Assembly: GCA_019636235.1 (NCBI GenBank)
Contig: JAHBXW010000003.1
Span: 64,001 to 128,000 of the forward strand
Source: Planctomyces sp.
Lineage (GTDB): Bacteria; Planctomycetota; Planctomycetia; Planctomycetales; Planctomycetaceae
Direction: 5' to 3'
DNA: 64,000 nt
The translations under genes and the position numbers were made by a program. The notes under the pieces are model-generated. The model was not told the DNA's origin and ran no database searches. It worked only from the letters and a program-made list of their open reading frames with translations. Below, piece after piece: positions 509 to 19,009 of this stretch. The stretch's first letter is position 1, and every line of letters starts with the position of its first letter.

Positions 509-3121
509 ATGAAAACCGACGACCTCCGTGAAGCCTACCTGGCGTTCTTCGAATCGAAGGGCTGCGTCCGTCGCCCCAGCGACGTCCTCGTCCCCCGCGA
601 CGACCCGACCGTTCTGTTCACCCCCGCCGGGATGAACCAGTTCAAGAACCAGTTTCTGGGGATTGGCCCGCTGGAGTTCACGAAGGCCACCACCTGCCAG
701 AAGTGCATCCGCACGGGCGACATCGACAACGTGGGGGTCACCGCGTACCACCACACGTTCTTTGAAATGCTGGGGAACTTCTCCTTCGGCGACTACTTCA
801 AGCGCGAGGCCATCAACTGGGCCTGGGAGTTCCTGACGGCGAAGGCCTGGCTGGGCCTCGATCCCGAGCGGCTGACCGTCACCGTGTACCTGGATGACGA
901 CGAGGCGGCCGGCATCTGGCAGAAGGACGTCGGCCTGTCGACGGACCGCATCTCCCGCTGCGATCAATACGAGAACTTCTGGCCGGCCGGGGCGCCGACG
1001 AACGGGCCTGACGGCGTCTGCGGCCCTTGCTCCGAGATTTACTATTTGCCCCCCGGCGGCTCGAAACCCGTCGAGATCTGGAACCTGGTGTTCACCCAGT
1101 TCAACCGCGTCGGCGAACCGCCCGACAATCTCCGCCCGCTGCCGAAGAAGAACATCGACACCGGCATGGGCCTGGAACGCTGCGCGTCCGTCCTGCAGGG
1201 GGTGCTCAGCAACTTCGAGATCGACATTCTGCGGCCGCTGTGCGTCGCCGCGGGGGATGCCGTCGGCCGCAGTTACGCGTTCGATGCCCCGGAAGGCCGC
1301 GCCCTGCGGAGAATCGCCGATCACATCCGCTGCGTCACGATGTGCGCCCACGAGGGGGTTGTGCCCGACAACGCCAAGCAGGGCTACGTCGTCCGCCAGC
1401 TGCTCCGCCGCGCGATGCTCGAGGGCTTCCTGCTCGGACGGCAGGAGCCGTTCCTGCACACGCTGGTGCCGATCGTCGCGGAGCTGATGCAACGCCCCTA
1501 TCCGGACGTTCTCAAGTCGGTGGCGGTCGTCGCTAGCATCGTGCGTGAAGAGGAAACCCAGTTCCTGGGCACGATCGAACGCGGGCTGTCCAAGTGGGAA
1601 TCGGTCGTCGAAAAAGCCAGGTCCGGCGGCGGCGTCGTCTCCGGTGAAGAGGCCTTCGGCCTGCATTCGCAGGACGGCTTCCTGATCGACCTGACCGTGC
1701 AGATGGCCGCGCGGAACGGGCTGACCGTCGACCGCGACCGCTTTGACGCCCTCGTCAAGGAGCACGAAGAACGCTCCGGGTCCGGCGCCTTCCTGAACAG
1801 CGTCATGGCCGAAGGCCCGCTGGACGCCATCCGCAAACAGCATGGCGGCACCAAGTTCATCGGCTATGACCAGGTTCAGGCGGCCGGGAAGGTCGTCGGC
1901 ATCATCGCCCACAAGCAACTCGCGAAGGAGCACTCCGGCGGCGAGACGATCGGCGTGCTGCTCGATCAGACCCCCTTCTATGGCGAGGCGGGGGGACAGG
2001 TTGGCGATACGGGCATCCTCAAGGGCCAGACGTTCGAATTCCAGGTCACCGACACCCAGCGCAACGCTGATCTGTTCATCCATATCGGCCGGCTGAAGCA
2101 GGGCACAATCCATGTCGGCGACGAGGCCGACGCGCGGATCGACGCCGAGCGCCGCGCCGGCATCCGCCGGGCGCACTCAGCGACGCACCTGCTGCATCAC
2201 GCGCTGCGACAGACGCTGGGGCCGAACGCGATGCAGCGGGGCTCGAAGGTCGAGAACGACATCCTGCGATTCGACTTCGCGCACGCCAAGCCGGTCACCG
2301 CGGACGAGCTGCGGCGGATCGAGGACGAGATCAATCTCCGCGTCTCGGAGGGTGCTGCGGTCGTCACCGAGGTCACCGATCAGAAGGTCGCCCGCGAGCG
2401 CGGCGCGATGATGCTGTTCGGCGAGAAGTACCCCGATCGTGTCCGCATGGTCACGATGGGGGACTTCAGCGTCGAACTCTGCGGCGGCACGCATCTCGCG
2501 AACACCGGGCAGGTCGGTCTTTGCCGATTGGTGTCCGAGGAGCCTGTCGCGAAAGGCGTTCGGCGGGTCACATGCGTGACGGGGCAGCGGGCGATCCAGC
2601 AGGTGCGCGAGGCCGAACGGCTGCTGCGCGAGGCGGCGACGCTGTTGCGGGCGCCGATGCCGGCGGAGATCCCGGAAAAGATCGCCGCGCTGCAGGATGA
2701 ACTGCAGGCTGCACGGCGGGAGCTGGCGGAGTTCACGAAGGCGTCGATCGCGGACGAGGCCGCGGCCATGCTGCGGGAGGCGGAGGTTGTCGGCGGCGTG
2801 AAGCTGATCGTCCGGGAGTTGAAGGGCGTGCCGCGGGACTCGCTGAAGGAGATGGTTGACCTGCTGCGGGCGGGGAAGGAGCCGGCAGCGGTGCTGTTGG
2901 GCCTCGTGGACGACGGCAAGGTGGCGTTGATCGCCGCGGTGTCGAAGGAGCTGGCGGGAAAGAAGCTGCATGCTGGCGAGTGCGTGAAGGCGGCGGCGAA
3001 GGTGGTGGGCGGCGGAGGCGGAGGGCGTCCGGACCTCGCGGAAGCAGGGGGCAAGGACCCCTCGCGGCTTGCCGAGGCGCTCGAAGCGGGCCAACAGGTG
3101 TTTCGCGCGAAGCTGGCCTGA
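509..3121 (+). CDS. alaS: Alanyl-tRNA synthetase
   Basis: Charges tRNA-Ala with alanine in the cytoplasm and edits mis-charged Ser/Gly. The 870-residue product is full length for the bacterial family (about 875). The class II catalytic domain opens the protein (the [17 protein letters not shown] segment near residue 90, then [11 protein letters not shown] near 170). The editing domain has the metal-binding pair HxxxH at H556/H560 (HSATH) and CxxxH at C658/H662 (CGGTH). The C-terminal C-Ala domain carries the glycine-rich signature [15 protein letters not shown] close to the end. ATG 509 is chosen because the family N terminus ([14 protein letters not shown]) begins a few codons later. Transcribed alone or with the nuclease gene upstream; gapA downstream has its own promoter. 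Confidence 0.98.
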
Positions 3122-3212
3122 GGCGCGCGATATTTTCCCGCGGGCGTGTGGCCGCTCGCGACGTTGATCCCGGCCCTGCCCCGGCCCATTCAGCATCCGG
3201 CGGCCCGCATGG

Positions 3213-3240
3213 TTGAGGATGCGCCACGGAACTCTATAAT
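3213..3240 (+). promoter_or_regulatory. Promoter of gapA
   Basis: TTGAGG (3213-3218), a 16-base spacer and a perfect TATAAT (3235-3240). Transcription would begin near 3247 and leave a leader of about 160 bases before the GTG start of gapA at 3409. The leader contains no open frame I would defend. Confidence 0.65.
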
Positions 3241-3408
3241 CGCCCGCACCAGGCGGCGTTGCGCACTCCGTGCGCCCCGCGTCGCCCGTCCTGCTCCCGG
3301 GGCGTGAGTGCGACTGCTGTGTCGGCCGTCGAGACTCACGGAGCGTCCGCGCCGGGCTCGGCCCCCTGTCTGTATCGTCCGCTTGCGAGCGACGTGGAGG
3401 AAAGTTTC

Positions 3409-15648: not shown

Positions 15649-17223
15649 TTAATCGGCGATCAGGTCGTTGCTCGCGAGAACATGCGGGGACCGCCGTTCC
15701 TGCCAGGCCAGCAACGCAGCTCCGCAAGTCTCGCGCGGCTTGAGCATCAGCCGCTCGCCGGCCGACAGGCCGCTGAGAATCTCCACCGCGTCCCGCGTCG
15801 ATGAACCCAGCAGAACCTCCCGGGCTTCGATGCGGTCGCCGGTCTTCACGAACGCCAGAAAGCAATCGTCGACCTCGGTGAACGCCTCCAGCGGAGCCTG
15901 CAGCGCATCGTCCTTCGAGGCCGCGATCAGGTTCACGCCCGCGGACAATCCCGGCGCCACGTCCTCCGGCGATTCGTCCAGCCGGACAACCGCCTCGTAT
16001 TCCCGCAGTTCCATGTTCGGCCACCGGCCGCTCAACGGGAACCGCGACACGCTGACCACGCTGCCCGTCAGAGATCGTTCCGGCATGGCGTCCAGCTGGA
16101 TGCGCGCCGGCAGGCCAACCGCCAGCAGCCGCTGCAGGCTTTCGTGCACGCGGACTTTGACCTGGAGCGCGGAGCGGTCCGGAATGCTCACCAGCGGCTG
16201 GAGAAAGCGGACCGTCATGCCCTCGCCGGTCTGATTCTGCCAGTCGCGGCTGTCGTTCACGTAGACGACCTGGCCGTCGTGCGGCGCCCGGAGTTCGCAG
16301 TAGCTCAGCATCCGCGTCGCCCAGGCGAGTTGTTCCTGCTGGCGCAGCAGTCGGCGCTGCTGCACGTCGACCTGCATTTCCCGACTGATTCGCCGGGTCT
16401 CGGCCAGCGAATGCTCGCGTTCAAGACGCCGCTGGCAATCCTCGGCCAGCCCTTCGAGTTCGCGGAGCGTTCGCGACCAGGTGTGGTCGCGAAGGACGCG
16501 GAGCTGCTCGACGAGGTCCTCATAGGCCCGTTGCCGCTGCATCAGGCCGACACGGGCGCGATCCAGATCGACGGCGGTCTGAAACCCTTTGGTGACCTGC
16601 CGGTCGACGAACGCCAGCGACTCCTGCGCGGTGTGCAGCGCGTCATCCGCCGCCGCGATCTGCCGTTCGAGTTCGTTCACCTGCTGCGGAAACTCGGCCG
16701 CCTGATACGCGTCGAGCTTCATCCGGGCGAGCTCCGCCGCCAGCATCGCCGCGGCGAGCGAGTTGCGGTTTTCGATTTCCTGAATCCGCTTCTCCTGGCG
16801 GGCCGTTTCCAGCGCCGCCTCGGCGGTCAGCACATCCACCAGTTCCTCGCCGTATTCCTCCAGCAGCTTGCTGACGTCCAGCGTGGCAATGATGTCGCCC
16901 GCCTTTACAAGCGTCCCTTCCGGAACGATCGACGTCAGGCGCGTCGACCATTCCACTTTGCTGGCCAGCACCGTCTCGCGCACGCACTCCACGTTCCCGC
17001 GCTGTTTGAGTTCCAGCGACAGCGGACCACGTCGGACGACAGCCGTCCCCGGCAGGTCCATCTGCGGCGAAAGCGCCTGCGGAGCATCCCCGGCCGTCAT
17101 CGCACGATCAATCACCAAGCCCAGCACGCCGCCAGCGGCGATCACCCCGACGACAACGGCCATAACGGCTCGCAGGCGGCGACGGCGAGGAGGACGGGAC
17201 AAGGGCAATCCAGCAACTGCCAT
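15649..17223 (-). CDS. HlyD/RND-type periplasmic adaptor (membrane fusion) protein
   Basis: A 524-residue adaptor likely linking an inner-membrane transporter to an outer-membrane channel. It has one N-terminal membrane helix (about residues 19-38), then a half lipoyl domain (SIVPEGTLVKAGDIIATLD near 105), a long coiled-coil hairpin (about residues 120-320, rich in Glu/Gln/Arg/Leu), the second lipoyl half (YCELRAPHDGQVVYV) and beta-barrel segments up to the C terminus. No ABC or RND permease and no outer-membrane factor gene is adjacent, so its partner must be encoded elsewhere. The coiled-coil is longer than in short RND adaptors. Start at ATG 17223 precedes the basic stretch before the membrane helix; no clear Shine-Dalgarno site. 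Confidence 0.82.
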   Translation of the reverse strand: MAVAGLPLSRPPRRRRLRAVMAVVVGVIAAGGVLGLVIDRAMTAGDAPQALSPQMDLPGTAVVRRGPLSLELKQRGNVECVRETVLASKVEWSTRLTSIVPEGTLVKAGDIIATLDVSKLLEEYGEELVDVLTAEAALETARQEKRIQEIENRNSLAAAMLAAELARMKLDAYQAAEFPQQVNELERQIAAADDALHTAQESLAFVDRQVTKGFQTAVDLDRARVGLMQRQRAYEDLVEQLRVLRDHTWSRTLRELEGLAEDCQRRLEREHSLAETRRISREMQVDVQQRRLLRQQEQLAWATRMLSYCELRAPHDGQVVYVNDSRDWQNQTGEGMTVRFLQPLVSIPDRSALQVKVRVHESLQRLLAVGLPARIQLDAMPERSLTGSVVSVSRFPLSGRWPNMELREYEAVVRLDESPEDVAPGLSAGVNLIAASKDDALQAPLEAFTEVDDCFLAFVKTGDRIEAREVLLGSSTRDAVEILSGLSAGERLMLKPRETCGAALLAWQERRSPHVLASNDLIAD

Positions 17224-17481
17224 GAGCGCAGGTGGGCTGAGGGTGGGCGTTCAACGGGGATTTCGTGCGGCCGGCGAGGACTCCTTTTCGGGAGAAGCGG
17301 CCATGGGTGGGAGAGGCGCCGCTGGGAGCGACGCATCAACAGGAGTGTATCTGTTATTCGGCCGCCTGGCCAGCACTAAACCTCGCCGAGCTTGCGCAAC
17401 CCGCAGCATCCGAGCATCAGAACCGCTGGTGGAAGCCGGTCAGTGGATGCGCGGTCCGCCGTGGTCATCCGTGCTTATCCC

Positions 17482-17531
17482 TTCGATCCGTGGTCAATTC
17501 ATTGGTTGCTTGAGGGGAACCACGGATCGAA
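17482..17531. repeat. Inverted repeat with ACCACGGATCGAA arms
   Basis: Arms 17482-17494 and 17519-17531 are perfect 13-bp reverse complements around a 24-base loop. Further partial copies of the core word (catccgtg, cggatcag, cggatag) flank it. It is intergenic and less G+C-rich than the genes. It looks like a dispersed non-coding repeat rather than a terminator, since no T tract follows on either strand. Confidence 0.6.
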
Positions 17532-17654
17532 CGGATCAGTCGGATAGCGTTCCCCACTGGTGGCCGCTGGATGGAGCTGGCCGGTCCACTTCAGGAGGTC
17601 TTTCGTTTCTTGCGTGCCTTTCGTGGTTGGAACCCTTCTCTGCCTGCCGCAGTC

Positions 17655-17697
17655 CCGAAACGACAAAACGCGGCGTTGAGAATTCTCAACGCCGCGT
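17655..17697 (-). terminator. Rho-independent terminator of the Cys-rich gene
   Basis: A perfect 13-bp stem (ACGCGGCGTTGAG 17668-17680, CTCAACGCCGCGT 17685-17697) with an AATT loop. On the minus strand it is followed by TTTGTCGTTTCG. It lies 46 bases past the stop codon. Confidence 0.85.
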
Positions 17698-17743
17698 CGA
17701 ACTCCGTCAGTGCATCGCCGACCGTCAGCCGGCGGATCAGACC

Positions 17744-18937
17744 TCAGTTCGTGAGCCCGAACAGGTTCTTCAGGCTCTTCCGGCTGCTGACCGGGCGGGC
17801 CGTCACCTGGGCCGGCGCGGGAGTTGGACGGCGGTAGAACGCGCCTTCCTCTTCCGGTTCGGCCGGGGCCGGGACGTCGTCTTCCGCAGCCGGCGCCGGT
17901 TCGCCAGCCGGCGCACAGGCCGGGGCGTACGGAGCGCAGTTGTTGCAGCCGTTGCTGTTGTCGCAGCAGGCGACCTGGGAAACCGGATTGACGATGTCAT
18001 ATCCGCAGGCGCACAGGGCCTTCTCCGCGGCACGGCGGACGCCGCGGTCGCAGTCGGCCAGAGCGTTCGTCAGGGCGTTGACGACGCAGGCCGAGCAGCA
18101 GCAGGGGTTCCGGCGAACCTGGACGGCGATCGCGTTGGCGGCCGCTTCCCGGACGCGCTCGTCGGCGTCGTTCAGGGCGTACGCGAAGGCGCTCATGATT
18201 TCCGGATGGCAGGCGCAGTCGTACTTCGACAGGCGGCGGATCGCGGCCCGGCGATCCTTCGCGTAGCAGGCCGTCTGCGACTGATAAATCAGCTTGGCGA
18301 TGCAGCACGCGTCATTGTCGACGTTGCAGCAGGTCGTGCCGGGAGCGGCGCAACCGGGATCGCACGGAGCGGCGCAGCCGGGATCACAGGCGTTGCCGTT
18401 GTGGCAGCAGGCGTCGTTTCCGCAGCCGTCGTTTCCGCAGCCGTTGCCGTTCGGGCAGCAGGCCGCATTGCCGCAGGCTCCGTTGCACGCCGCGCCGTTC
18501 GGGCAGCACGCGGCGTTGCCGCAGCCGTTCCCGCAGGCCCCATTGTCGCAGGCGCCGCAGGCATTGCCGCAGCCGTTCCCGCAGGCCCCGTTGTCGCAGG
18601 CGCCGCCGCCATTGCCGCAGGCCATCCCGCAACCATTGCCGCAGGCGTTGCCGCAGCCCAGACCGCAGCCGCGACGGCCGCAGGGGGAGCAGCCGCGGCG
18701 ACGGCCGCAGCCGTCATCGCAGCAGGGCGGCTTCAGGCAGGACAACTGCCGCTGATACGTGTACACATTGATGCAGCCGGGCCGCACGATCGTCGGCTTG
18801 CAGCAGGTCGGCTGGCACGTCGGTGCGCAATCGCAACACTTCGACGCGCCGCTGTGCCGGTTGGCGCGTGCCGCGTGAGCTGATTCGCTCACGCACAGCA
18901 CCGCCAGGATGGCAGCGCACGCCTTGAGGGACTTCAT
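17744..18937 (-). CDS. Exported Cys/Gly/Asn-rich protein with HEAT-like helices
   Basis: A 397-residue protein with a clear signal peptide (MKSLKACAAILAVLCVSESAHA). By hand count the mature part has about 58 cysteines (roughly 15%). It opens with CC-rich motifs (residues 33-75). Next comes a low-complexity stretch (about 80-200) of units such as CGNGCGNAC, CDNGACGNG, CCPNGAAC and CDPGCAAP. A helical HEAT-like part (about 205-315) includes DADERVREAAANAIAVQVRR and DCDRGVRRAAEKAL, and a Pro/Glu-rich tail ends the protein. ATG 18937 is supported by AAGGAG six bases upstream. The gene has its own terminator. Cysteine-rich surface proteins are known in planctomycetes; a cross-linked cell-wall or metal-binding role is inference. 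Confidence 0.8.
   Translation of the reverse strand: MKSLKACAAILAVLCVSESAHAARANRHSGASKCCDCAPTCQPTCCKPTIVRPGCINVYTYQRQLSCLKPPCCDDGCGRRRGCSPCGRRGCGLGCGNACGNGCGMACGNGGGACDNGACGNGCGNACGACDNGACGNGCGNAACCPNGAACNGACGNAACCPNGNGCGNDGCGNDACCHNGNACDPGCAAPCDPGCAAPGTTCCNVDNDACCIAKLIYQSQTACYAKDRRAAIRRLSKYDCACHPEIMSAFAYALNDADERVREAAANAIAVQVRRNPCCCSACVVNALTNALADCDRGVRRAAEKALCACGYDIVNPVSQVACCDNSNGCNNCAPYAPACAPAGEPAPAAEDDVPAPAEPEEEGAFYRRPTPAPAQVTARPVSSRKSLKNLFGLTN
18380..18665 (-). repeat. Degenerate tandem repeats inside the Cys-rich gene
   Basis: Short units encoding Cys-Gly-Asn-Gly/Ala and Cys-Asp-Asn-Gly-Ala are repeated many times. One block (about 18528-18560) recurs almost unchanged at about 18573-18605. 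Such tracts can expand or contract by slippage or recombination. Confidence 0.7.
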
Positions 18938-18992
18938 TTGCGTCTCCTTCCGATGGTTCATCCCTGAGCCGTCGTCCAACCGCGGGTTCCTT

Positions 18993-19009
18993 GAACGGTC
19001 TGACCGTTC
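18993..19009. promoter_or_regulatory. Perfect dyad upstream of the Cys-rich gene
   Basis: GAACGGTC (18993-19000), one central base and GACCGTTC (19002-19009). It lies 56-72 bases before the start codon of the Cys-rich gene, a suitable place for an operator or a leader hairpin. Function is inference. Confidence 0.45.

Follow-up and report, generated by a model that had tools for sequence, protein, structure and literature searches.

The 64,000-nucleotide stretch of Planctomyces sp. DNA analyzed here (the window) encodes an exported Cys-rich protein that, judging from its sequence and from those of its homologs, is probably a structural component of the planctomycete cell envelope that acts by disulfide cross-linking. 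The protein has 397 residues, 60 of them Cys; 58 Cys lie in residues 23-397 (15.5%), which puts exact figures on the original prediction of about 58 Cys making up about 15% of the mature protein. Measured from stop to stop, the gene frame has 12.6% Cys, compared to a median of 1.2% for 30 window ORFs that reach 200 codons or more, a set that contains this frame. The CGNGC, CDNGAC, CCPNGAAC, and CDPGCAAP units that were described earlier are all found in the translation. The HEAT helices were also predicted correctly, as the protein matches the Pfam families HEAT_2 (PF13646; residues 215-308, E = 5e-7) and HEAT (PF02985; residues 247-271, E = 8e-6), with both scores over the gathering threshold, and six helices are present in a predicted structural model. 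With profile matches and helix pairs, the protein belongs to the HEAT repeat family. The parts of the gene and its flanking signals are given in Table 1.

Table 1. Positions in the window of the Cys-rich gene, the parts of its product, and adjacent sequence signals
Feature	Position	Strand	Remarks
Cys-rich gene, whole	17744..18937	-	397 aa plus stop; matches in 144/170 family genomes
Putative signal peptide, residues 1-22 (MKSLKACAAILAVLCVSESAHA, AxA site)	18872..18937	-	judged by eye; A22 found in all 24 aligned homologs
N-terminal Cys module, residues 23-75, with CQPTCCKPTIVRPGCINVYTYQR	18713..18871	-	C37, C45, C46, P48, I50, P53, Q62, R63 invariant in 24 homologs; altered form persists in HEAT-less homologs
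Cys tract, residues 76-208, with GNGC, CDNGAC, CCPNGAAC, and CDPGCAAP units	18314..18712	-	repeat units vary among homologs; model pLDDT below 50
HEAT module, residues 209-318, six helices	17984..18313	-	Cys 224, 241, 243, 279, 280, 281, 296, 311 found in all 24 homologs
C-terminal Cys patch, Pro/Ala/Glu linker, and terminal SLKNLFGLTN peptide, residues 319-397	17747..17983	-	L389 invariant; P358, P361, L392, G394 at least 90% conserved in alignment
Ribosome binding site GAAGGAGAC	18942..18950	-	AAGGAG in 22/23 homologs
Intrinsic-terminator-like hairpin, 14 bp stem	17667..17698	-	terminator-like site in 22/23 homologs versus 8/230 shuffles
Upstream dyad GAACGGTC-T-GACCGTTC	18993..19009	.	within a larger inverted pair (I1); no counterpart seen in homologs

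An artefact of antisense reading in GC-rich DNA is ruled out by the GC3 of 0.82 in the gene frame and by conservation at the protein level. The simplest explanation of the overlapping plus-strand ORF (16868-18883; 671 residues) is an antisense shadow of the Cys gene with its GC-rich frame; it is an example of an annotation trap in such DNA.

We find that the protein is widespread in its own GTDB family, Planctomycetaceae. A homolog search with the window protein hit 144 of the 170 family genomes searched. Counting only high-quality genomes the figure is 117 of 130, and by genus it is 53 of 58, so the gene is no lone oddity of a single genome. Similarly, a profile built from 24 homologs matches 120 of the 134 family genomes that are at least 90% complete (the 134 genomes drawn at the level of the order are all Planctomycetaceae), and there is no match in the other 14, including four of genus g55. 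Copy number can be higher than one: one genome (G150) has three copies of the gene, two with approximately 20% Cys, and two other genomes (G151 and G152) have six profile matches each. When the profile search was extended to 397 genomes of the class, we recovered the same 120 family genomes and 10 of 263 genomes from other families (best E from 2e-11 to 7e-6), with the proviso that four candidates per genome were scored and weak or distant homologs elsewhere may be missed. The matching frames from nine of these ten genomes (all but G244), 123 to 934 codons long, encode HEAT proteins with between 0 and 18 Cys, and the Cys tract is absent from all of them. As the search turned up the full architecture in no other family, this is not a general planctomycete wall protein; rather, the architecture looks like a signature of Planctomycetaceae. 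A literature search found no paper recognizable as describing the protein and no proteome in which it is named, with supplementary tables outside its coverage. This is therefore a real, conserved protein family that has apparently gone without a description so far.

To describe the anatomy of the family, we used the top-ranked full-length loci, for a total of 24 aligned homologs with the window protein included. Five loci were left out by a motif filter (L015, L022, L023, L026, and L030), one as partial (L040), and L005-L009 as copies of omitted loci or partial. A second sample has 20 loci, of which 6 are genes of the first sample and 14 are new. Each of the aligned proteins begins with a signal-like segment, followed by an N-terminal motif (consensus TCQPxCCKPTIARPCCxNVYTYQR), the Cys tract, the HEAT module, and a Pro/Ala linker; most end in an SLxxLFGL-like peptide. 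The Cys tract is likewise present in all 20 loci of the second sample, thus homologs do not lack the feature on which the structural prediction was based. Cys makes up 12.1-17.4% of the residues after position 22 in the aligned homologs and 10.8-20.2% in the second sample. Every homolog measured combines a Cys-rich composition with a signal-like N terminus, which is the sequence pattern of disulfide-cross-linked envelope proteins (export signal and Cys-richness, conserved in relatives), the signal being read by eye. Cys is invariant in 13 alignment columns, namely the N-terminal and HEAT positions in Table 1 and C83 and C196 in the tract, where invariance hinges on the alignment.

The tract itself changes rapidly. 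Its repeat unit differs by lineage (GNGC, CAPACAAP, or DPGCAAP) while the Cys content persists, suggesting selection on Cys and its spacing rather than on an active site. The two homologs from genus g3 (L069 and L070, in genomes G003 and G004) retain the signal, the Cys tract, and an AYFPSRF..NLYGM end and have no HEAT module; the tract is therefore the more constant part of the protein. A 203-codon frame in a third genome (L081 in G043; weak match, E = 0.0014) combines 30 Cys with a changed N-terminal motif and has no HEAT module.

The sequences flanking the gene support strong translation. AAGGAG is located at most 18 nt from the start in the 22 homologs counted in Table 1 (one of the 24, L032, has no upstream flank) and is extended to GAAGGAGAC in 18 of them. 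In the second sample AAGGAG is found at 16 of 20 loci, including 10 of the 14 genes new to that sample, and is missing from the other four. Among 32 window ORFs, the Cys gene is the only one with AAGGAG before any in-frame start in the first 110 codons. The strong ribosome site of the original prediction is thus present and conserved. The predicted terminator is also present as a sequence pattern. Shuffling of the window's terminator region gives 1.5 such sites on average; the single window site is therefore weak by itself, and the case for a terminator rests on the homologs. In the second sample, a terminator is seen at four of the eight loci that pass a strict C-terminal filter. The earlier claim of high, regulated expression is therefore supported for strong translation, yet four of the new loci lack AAGGAG, and it is not supported for regulation. 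The upstream dyad exists, however we saw no counterpart by eye in the printed upstream regions of homologs and discarded the dyad as a conserved operator. A sigma-70-like promoter was not found either.

We also discarded the idea of an operon partner, because flanking genes are little shared beyond the genus. In a comparison with 18 other regions, whose listing omitted neighbors common to just two or three regions, flanking genes are common only to the region from the same genus (L099). Two of the flanking ORFs, one topoisomerase-like and one for a sigma factor, are also matched more weakly (at 382 and 99 bits, respectively) in a region from genome G090 (L098).

Many of these observations would fit a disulfide-linked component of a surface appendage or matrix, such as a stalk, holdfast, fiber, or crateriform pit, equally well as a component of the wall itself. 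Export, the abundance signals, and the Cys tract do not distinguish between the two, fast-changing repeats suit an exposed matrix, and crateriform structures, fimbriae, and a stalk are reported for members of Planctomycetaceae. However, neither the sequence nor the neighborhood points to an appendage or to a dedicated secretion system, and we consider this explanation unlikely.

The original prediction left open whether the Cys residues bind metal or form disulfides in a structural protein. An extracytoplasmic protein that binds or stores metal through thiolate ligands would account for the 58 Cys, and the clusters at the HEAT turns (C241/C243, C279-C281, and C311) could hold metal. The hallmark of metallothioneins is CxC spacing, with CxC ligands throughout a short chain. 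Among the 630 Cys-Cys gaps in the tracts of the 24 homologs, we find 222 CxxxC, 119 CC, and only 4 CxC, with 101 gaps of spacing 6, 71 of spacing 5, 67 of spacing 7, and the remainder of other spacings; the tract of the window protein has no CxC. The near absence of CxC makes metal storage less likely. In addition, all Pfam matches of the window protein at E up to 1 are to HEAT-type or other helical-repeat families, and NCBIfam gives no match at the same threshold. Lastly, the genome encodes a VKOR domain (E = 4.6e-21 in a 459-codon frame), and export together with this VKOR-type domain favors disulfides. The metal-binding alternative is therefore weakened to the point of being very doubtful, and a structural protein linked by disulfides has the better support.

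The HEAT module is the one part of the protein with a confidently predicted fold. In a model built on an alignment of four sequences, the six helices fall within residues 210-310, with block pLDDT of 66-90 over residues 211-310 and 72-90 over 221-310, and there is no confident fold outside this region. Among solved structures, synthetic HEAT-type proteins come closest by sequence (a synthetic fusion at E = 1e-16 and a protein named alphaRep at 1e-12), and a fold search of solved structures was weak (best E = 9e-3). By our reading of the invariant Cys against the helix boundaries of the model, C241/C243, C279-C281, and C311 would lie at successive turns along one edge of the solenoid, and C224 and C296 at turns of the other edge.

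Cys residues at HEAT turns are not restricted to the window family. Six of eight HEAT relatives from other families have Cys at all three successive turns, in a sample that is biased because these proteins were found with a Cys-rich profile. Using one of them (L077) as a query, we found matches in 47 of 198 genomes of the class, 36 of them outside Planctomycetaceae, and a weak match (E = 2e-6) on contig C15 of the window's own genome. The C15 protein (L157; frame start 1218) has a signal-like N terminus and carries GCGCY, KCCDEEV, and CACC at the corresponding turns. Proteins of this kind (L157, L077, L075, and L074) span several planctomycete families. Like the window protein, L077, L075, and L157 start with a signal-like segment and carry Cys at each of the three equivalent turns; unlike it, they have neither the N-terminal Cys motif nor the Cys tract, with 10 Cys in 437 codons, 17 in 698, and 14 in 422, respectively. 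Based on these comparisons, an exported HEAT module with Cys at its turns seems to predate Planctomycetaceae, and the Cys tract seems to have been added later. In one of these proteins (L075; frame 1192-3285, family f7), a long C-terminal extension follows the HEAT module. Pfam gives no match over the extension, and it is only an impression that it resembles an outer-membrane barrel. That the window protein serves mainly as a HEAT adaptor for a protein or peptide partner, and that its Cys tract is a stabilized spacer or redox sensor, would agree with the concentration of within-family invariant positions in the HEAT module and with the exported relatives of this module in other families, but HEAT-less homologs retain the Cys tract and the N-terminal Cys module is also strongly conserved, so we regard this role as improbable.

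We therefore favor a structural envelope protein and propose the following way of working. The conserved ribosome site and terminator-like hairpin are what one might expect of a standalone gene whose product is made at a high rate. The protein would be exported through its putative signal peptide and oxidized outside the cytoplasm, possibly by the VKOR-type system for which the genome carries a gene. The N-terminal Cys module and the low-complexity Cys tract may form a flexible, cross-linkable rope, and the HEAT solenoid, with invariant Cys at its turns, a rigid node, stapled by disulfides, that keeps chains or partners together. Positioning in the envelope may fall to the Pro/Ala linker and the C-terminal peptide, and the protein would work there beside the YTV wall proteins of the same genome. 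A more ambitious version, which we put forward as speculation and think rather unlikely, is that the protein is a main load-bearing subunit of a disulfide-linked protein sacculus, in which the Cys tract polymerizes and the Cys-lined HEAT node sets the mesh, and that the Cys-turn HEAT domain is an older exported planctomycete module that Planctomycetaceae fused to a Cys rope. If this were true, local reduction or oxidation could control the sites at which the wall opens for budding.

The YTV proteins are the natural point of comparison. According to two reports, planctomycete walls have been suggested to consist mostly of protein, and the highest scores in wall preparations are those of Cys-rich YTV proteins (PMC8567305, PMC5287468); a YTV protein is also listed among the essential genes of P. 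limnophila (PMC10632474), and YTV proteins are reported to be restricted to planctomycetes (PMC8567305, PMC10632474). Peptidoglycan is reported to have been detected later in planctomycetes (PMC5287468, PMC10632474), thus a purely proteinaceous wall is disputed. The window protein is not a YTV protein, as PF07639 is not among its Pfam matches at E up to 1. It resembles YTV proteins in being exported, Cys-rich, and encoded in the same genome, and differs in having a HEAT module and a Gly/Asn/Cys tract in place of the YTV domain. In the window's own genome, a YTV search gave 14 matches above the cut-off, spread over three frames, and a fourth frame with one match under it, all at other loci. AAGGAG does not precede the likely start of any of the three YTV genes, one of which has GGAGG. 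The ranges also differ: the window family is found in 120 of the 134 genomes of a single family, whereas YTV is found in 131 of these (it is absent at E = 1e-5 from G167, G168, and G169) and by report in other families. Two genomes of genus g58 (G167 and G169) have the Cys-rich HEAT protein and no YTV match. Conversely, six near-complete genomes (G156, G157, G160, and G161 of genus g55, as well as G149 and G162) have YTV and no recognizable homolog of the window protein. Given g58 on the one hand and g55 on the other, there is no strict co-occurrence of the two families.

The repeat units provide a further connection within the window's genome. A YTV-type frame on contig C42 (L044; start 994) has 74 Cys in 484 codons (15.3%), and its C-terminal tail carries DPGCAAPC. 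Across the 5.6 Mb genome there are 10 occurrences of the PGCAAP codon pattern, compared to 1 for a reversed-pattern control. Two of the 10 are in the window gene, two in a 137-residue ORF on contig C18, and one in the C42 YTV-type ORF; of the other five, three are in frames of 1.6-2.6% Cys and two are in no 100-codon frame. The C18 ORF (L158, frame start 913; also L119) has a signal-like start, 30 Cys, CDPGCAAPC and CCAPA units, and no HEAT module, and it probably encodes another exported Cys-rich protein of this genome. A general link between the CAAP unit and YTV proteins was not borne out, as CAAP occurs in 1 of 18 YTV-type ORFs of other genomes, against a background of 1 in 532 ORFs (all below 5% Cys and including non-coding frames). 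The DPGCAAPC common to the window protein and its own genome's YTV protein is therefore suggestive of a local link only.

These findings bear on how the planctomycete wall is put together. The wall has long been said to be protein-rich and resistant to SDS, and in the literature consulted only the YTV proteins are named as its Cys-rich components. We identify a second exported Cys-rich family, without the YTV domain, that is present in most near-complete genomes of Planctomycetaceae and mostly carries strong-translation signals. A homolog of 436 residues and 59 Cys, with GGAAGGAGATT before its start, is encoded on the minus strand of contig 1 of genome G092 (4,537,468-4,538,778). This genome is very probably that of Planctopirus limnophila, a genetic model for which gene deletions and a transposon library covering the whole genome exist (PMC10632474), and the homolog makes wall composition and cross-linking directly testable there.

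Structural proteins held together by disulfides are known from other systems. The chlamydial proteins OmcA and OmcB, from a related phylum, are exported and Cys-rich and are cross-linked by disulfides in the outer membrane complex. The likeness to the window protein is in the way of working only, as the architecture differs and the window protein has no Pfam match to an OmcB-type family at E up to 1. In hair, the keratin-associated ultra-high-sulfur proteins form a cross-linking matrix and have CC and CxxxC repeats; they are animal proteins and have no HEAT module, and we note the likeness without any claim of homology. The protein described here is thus new as a family and as an architecture, and the cross-linking principle is one that is already known.
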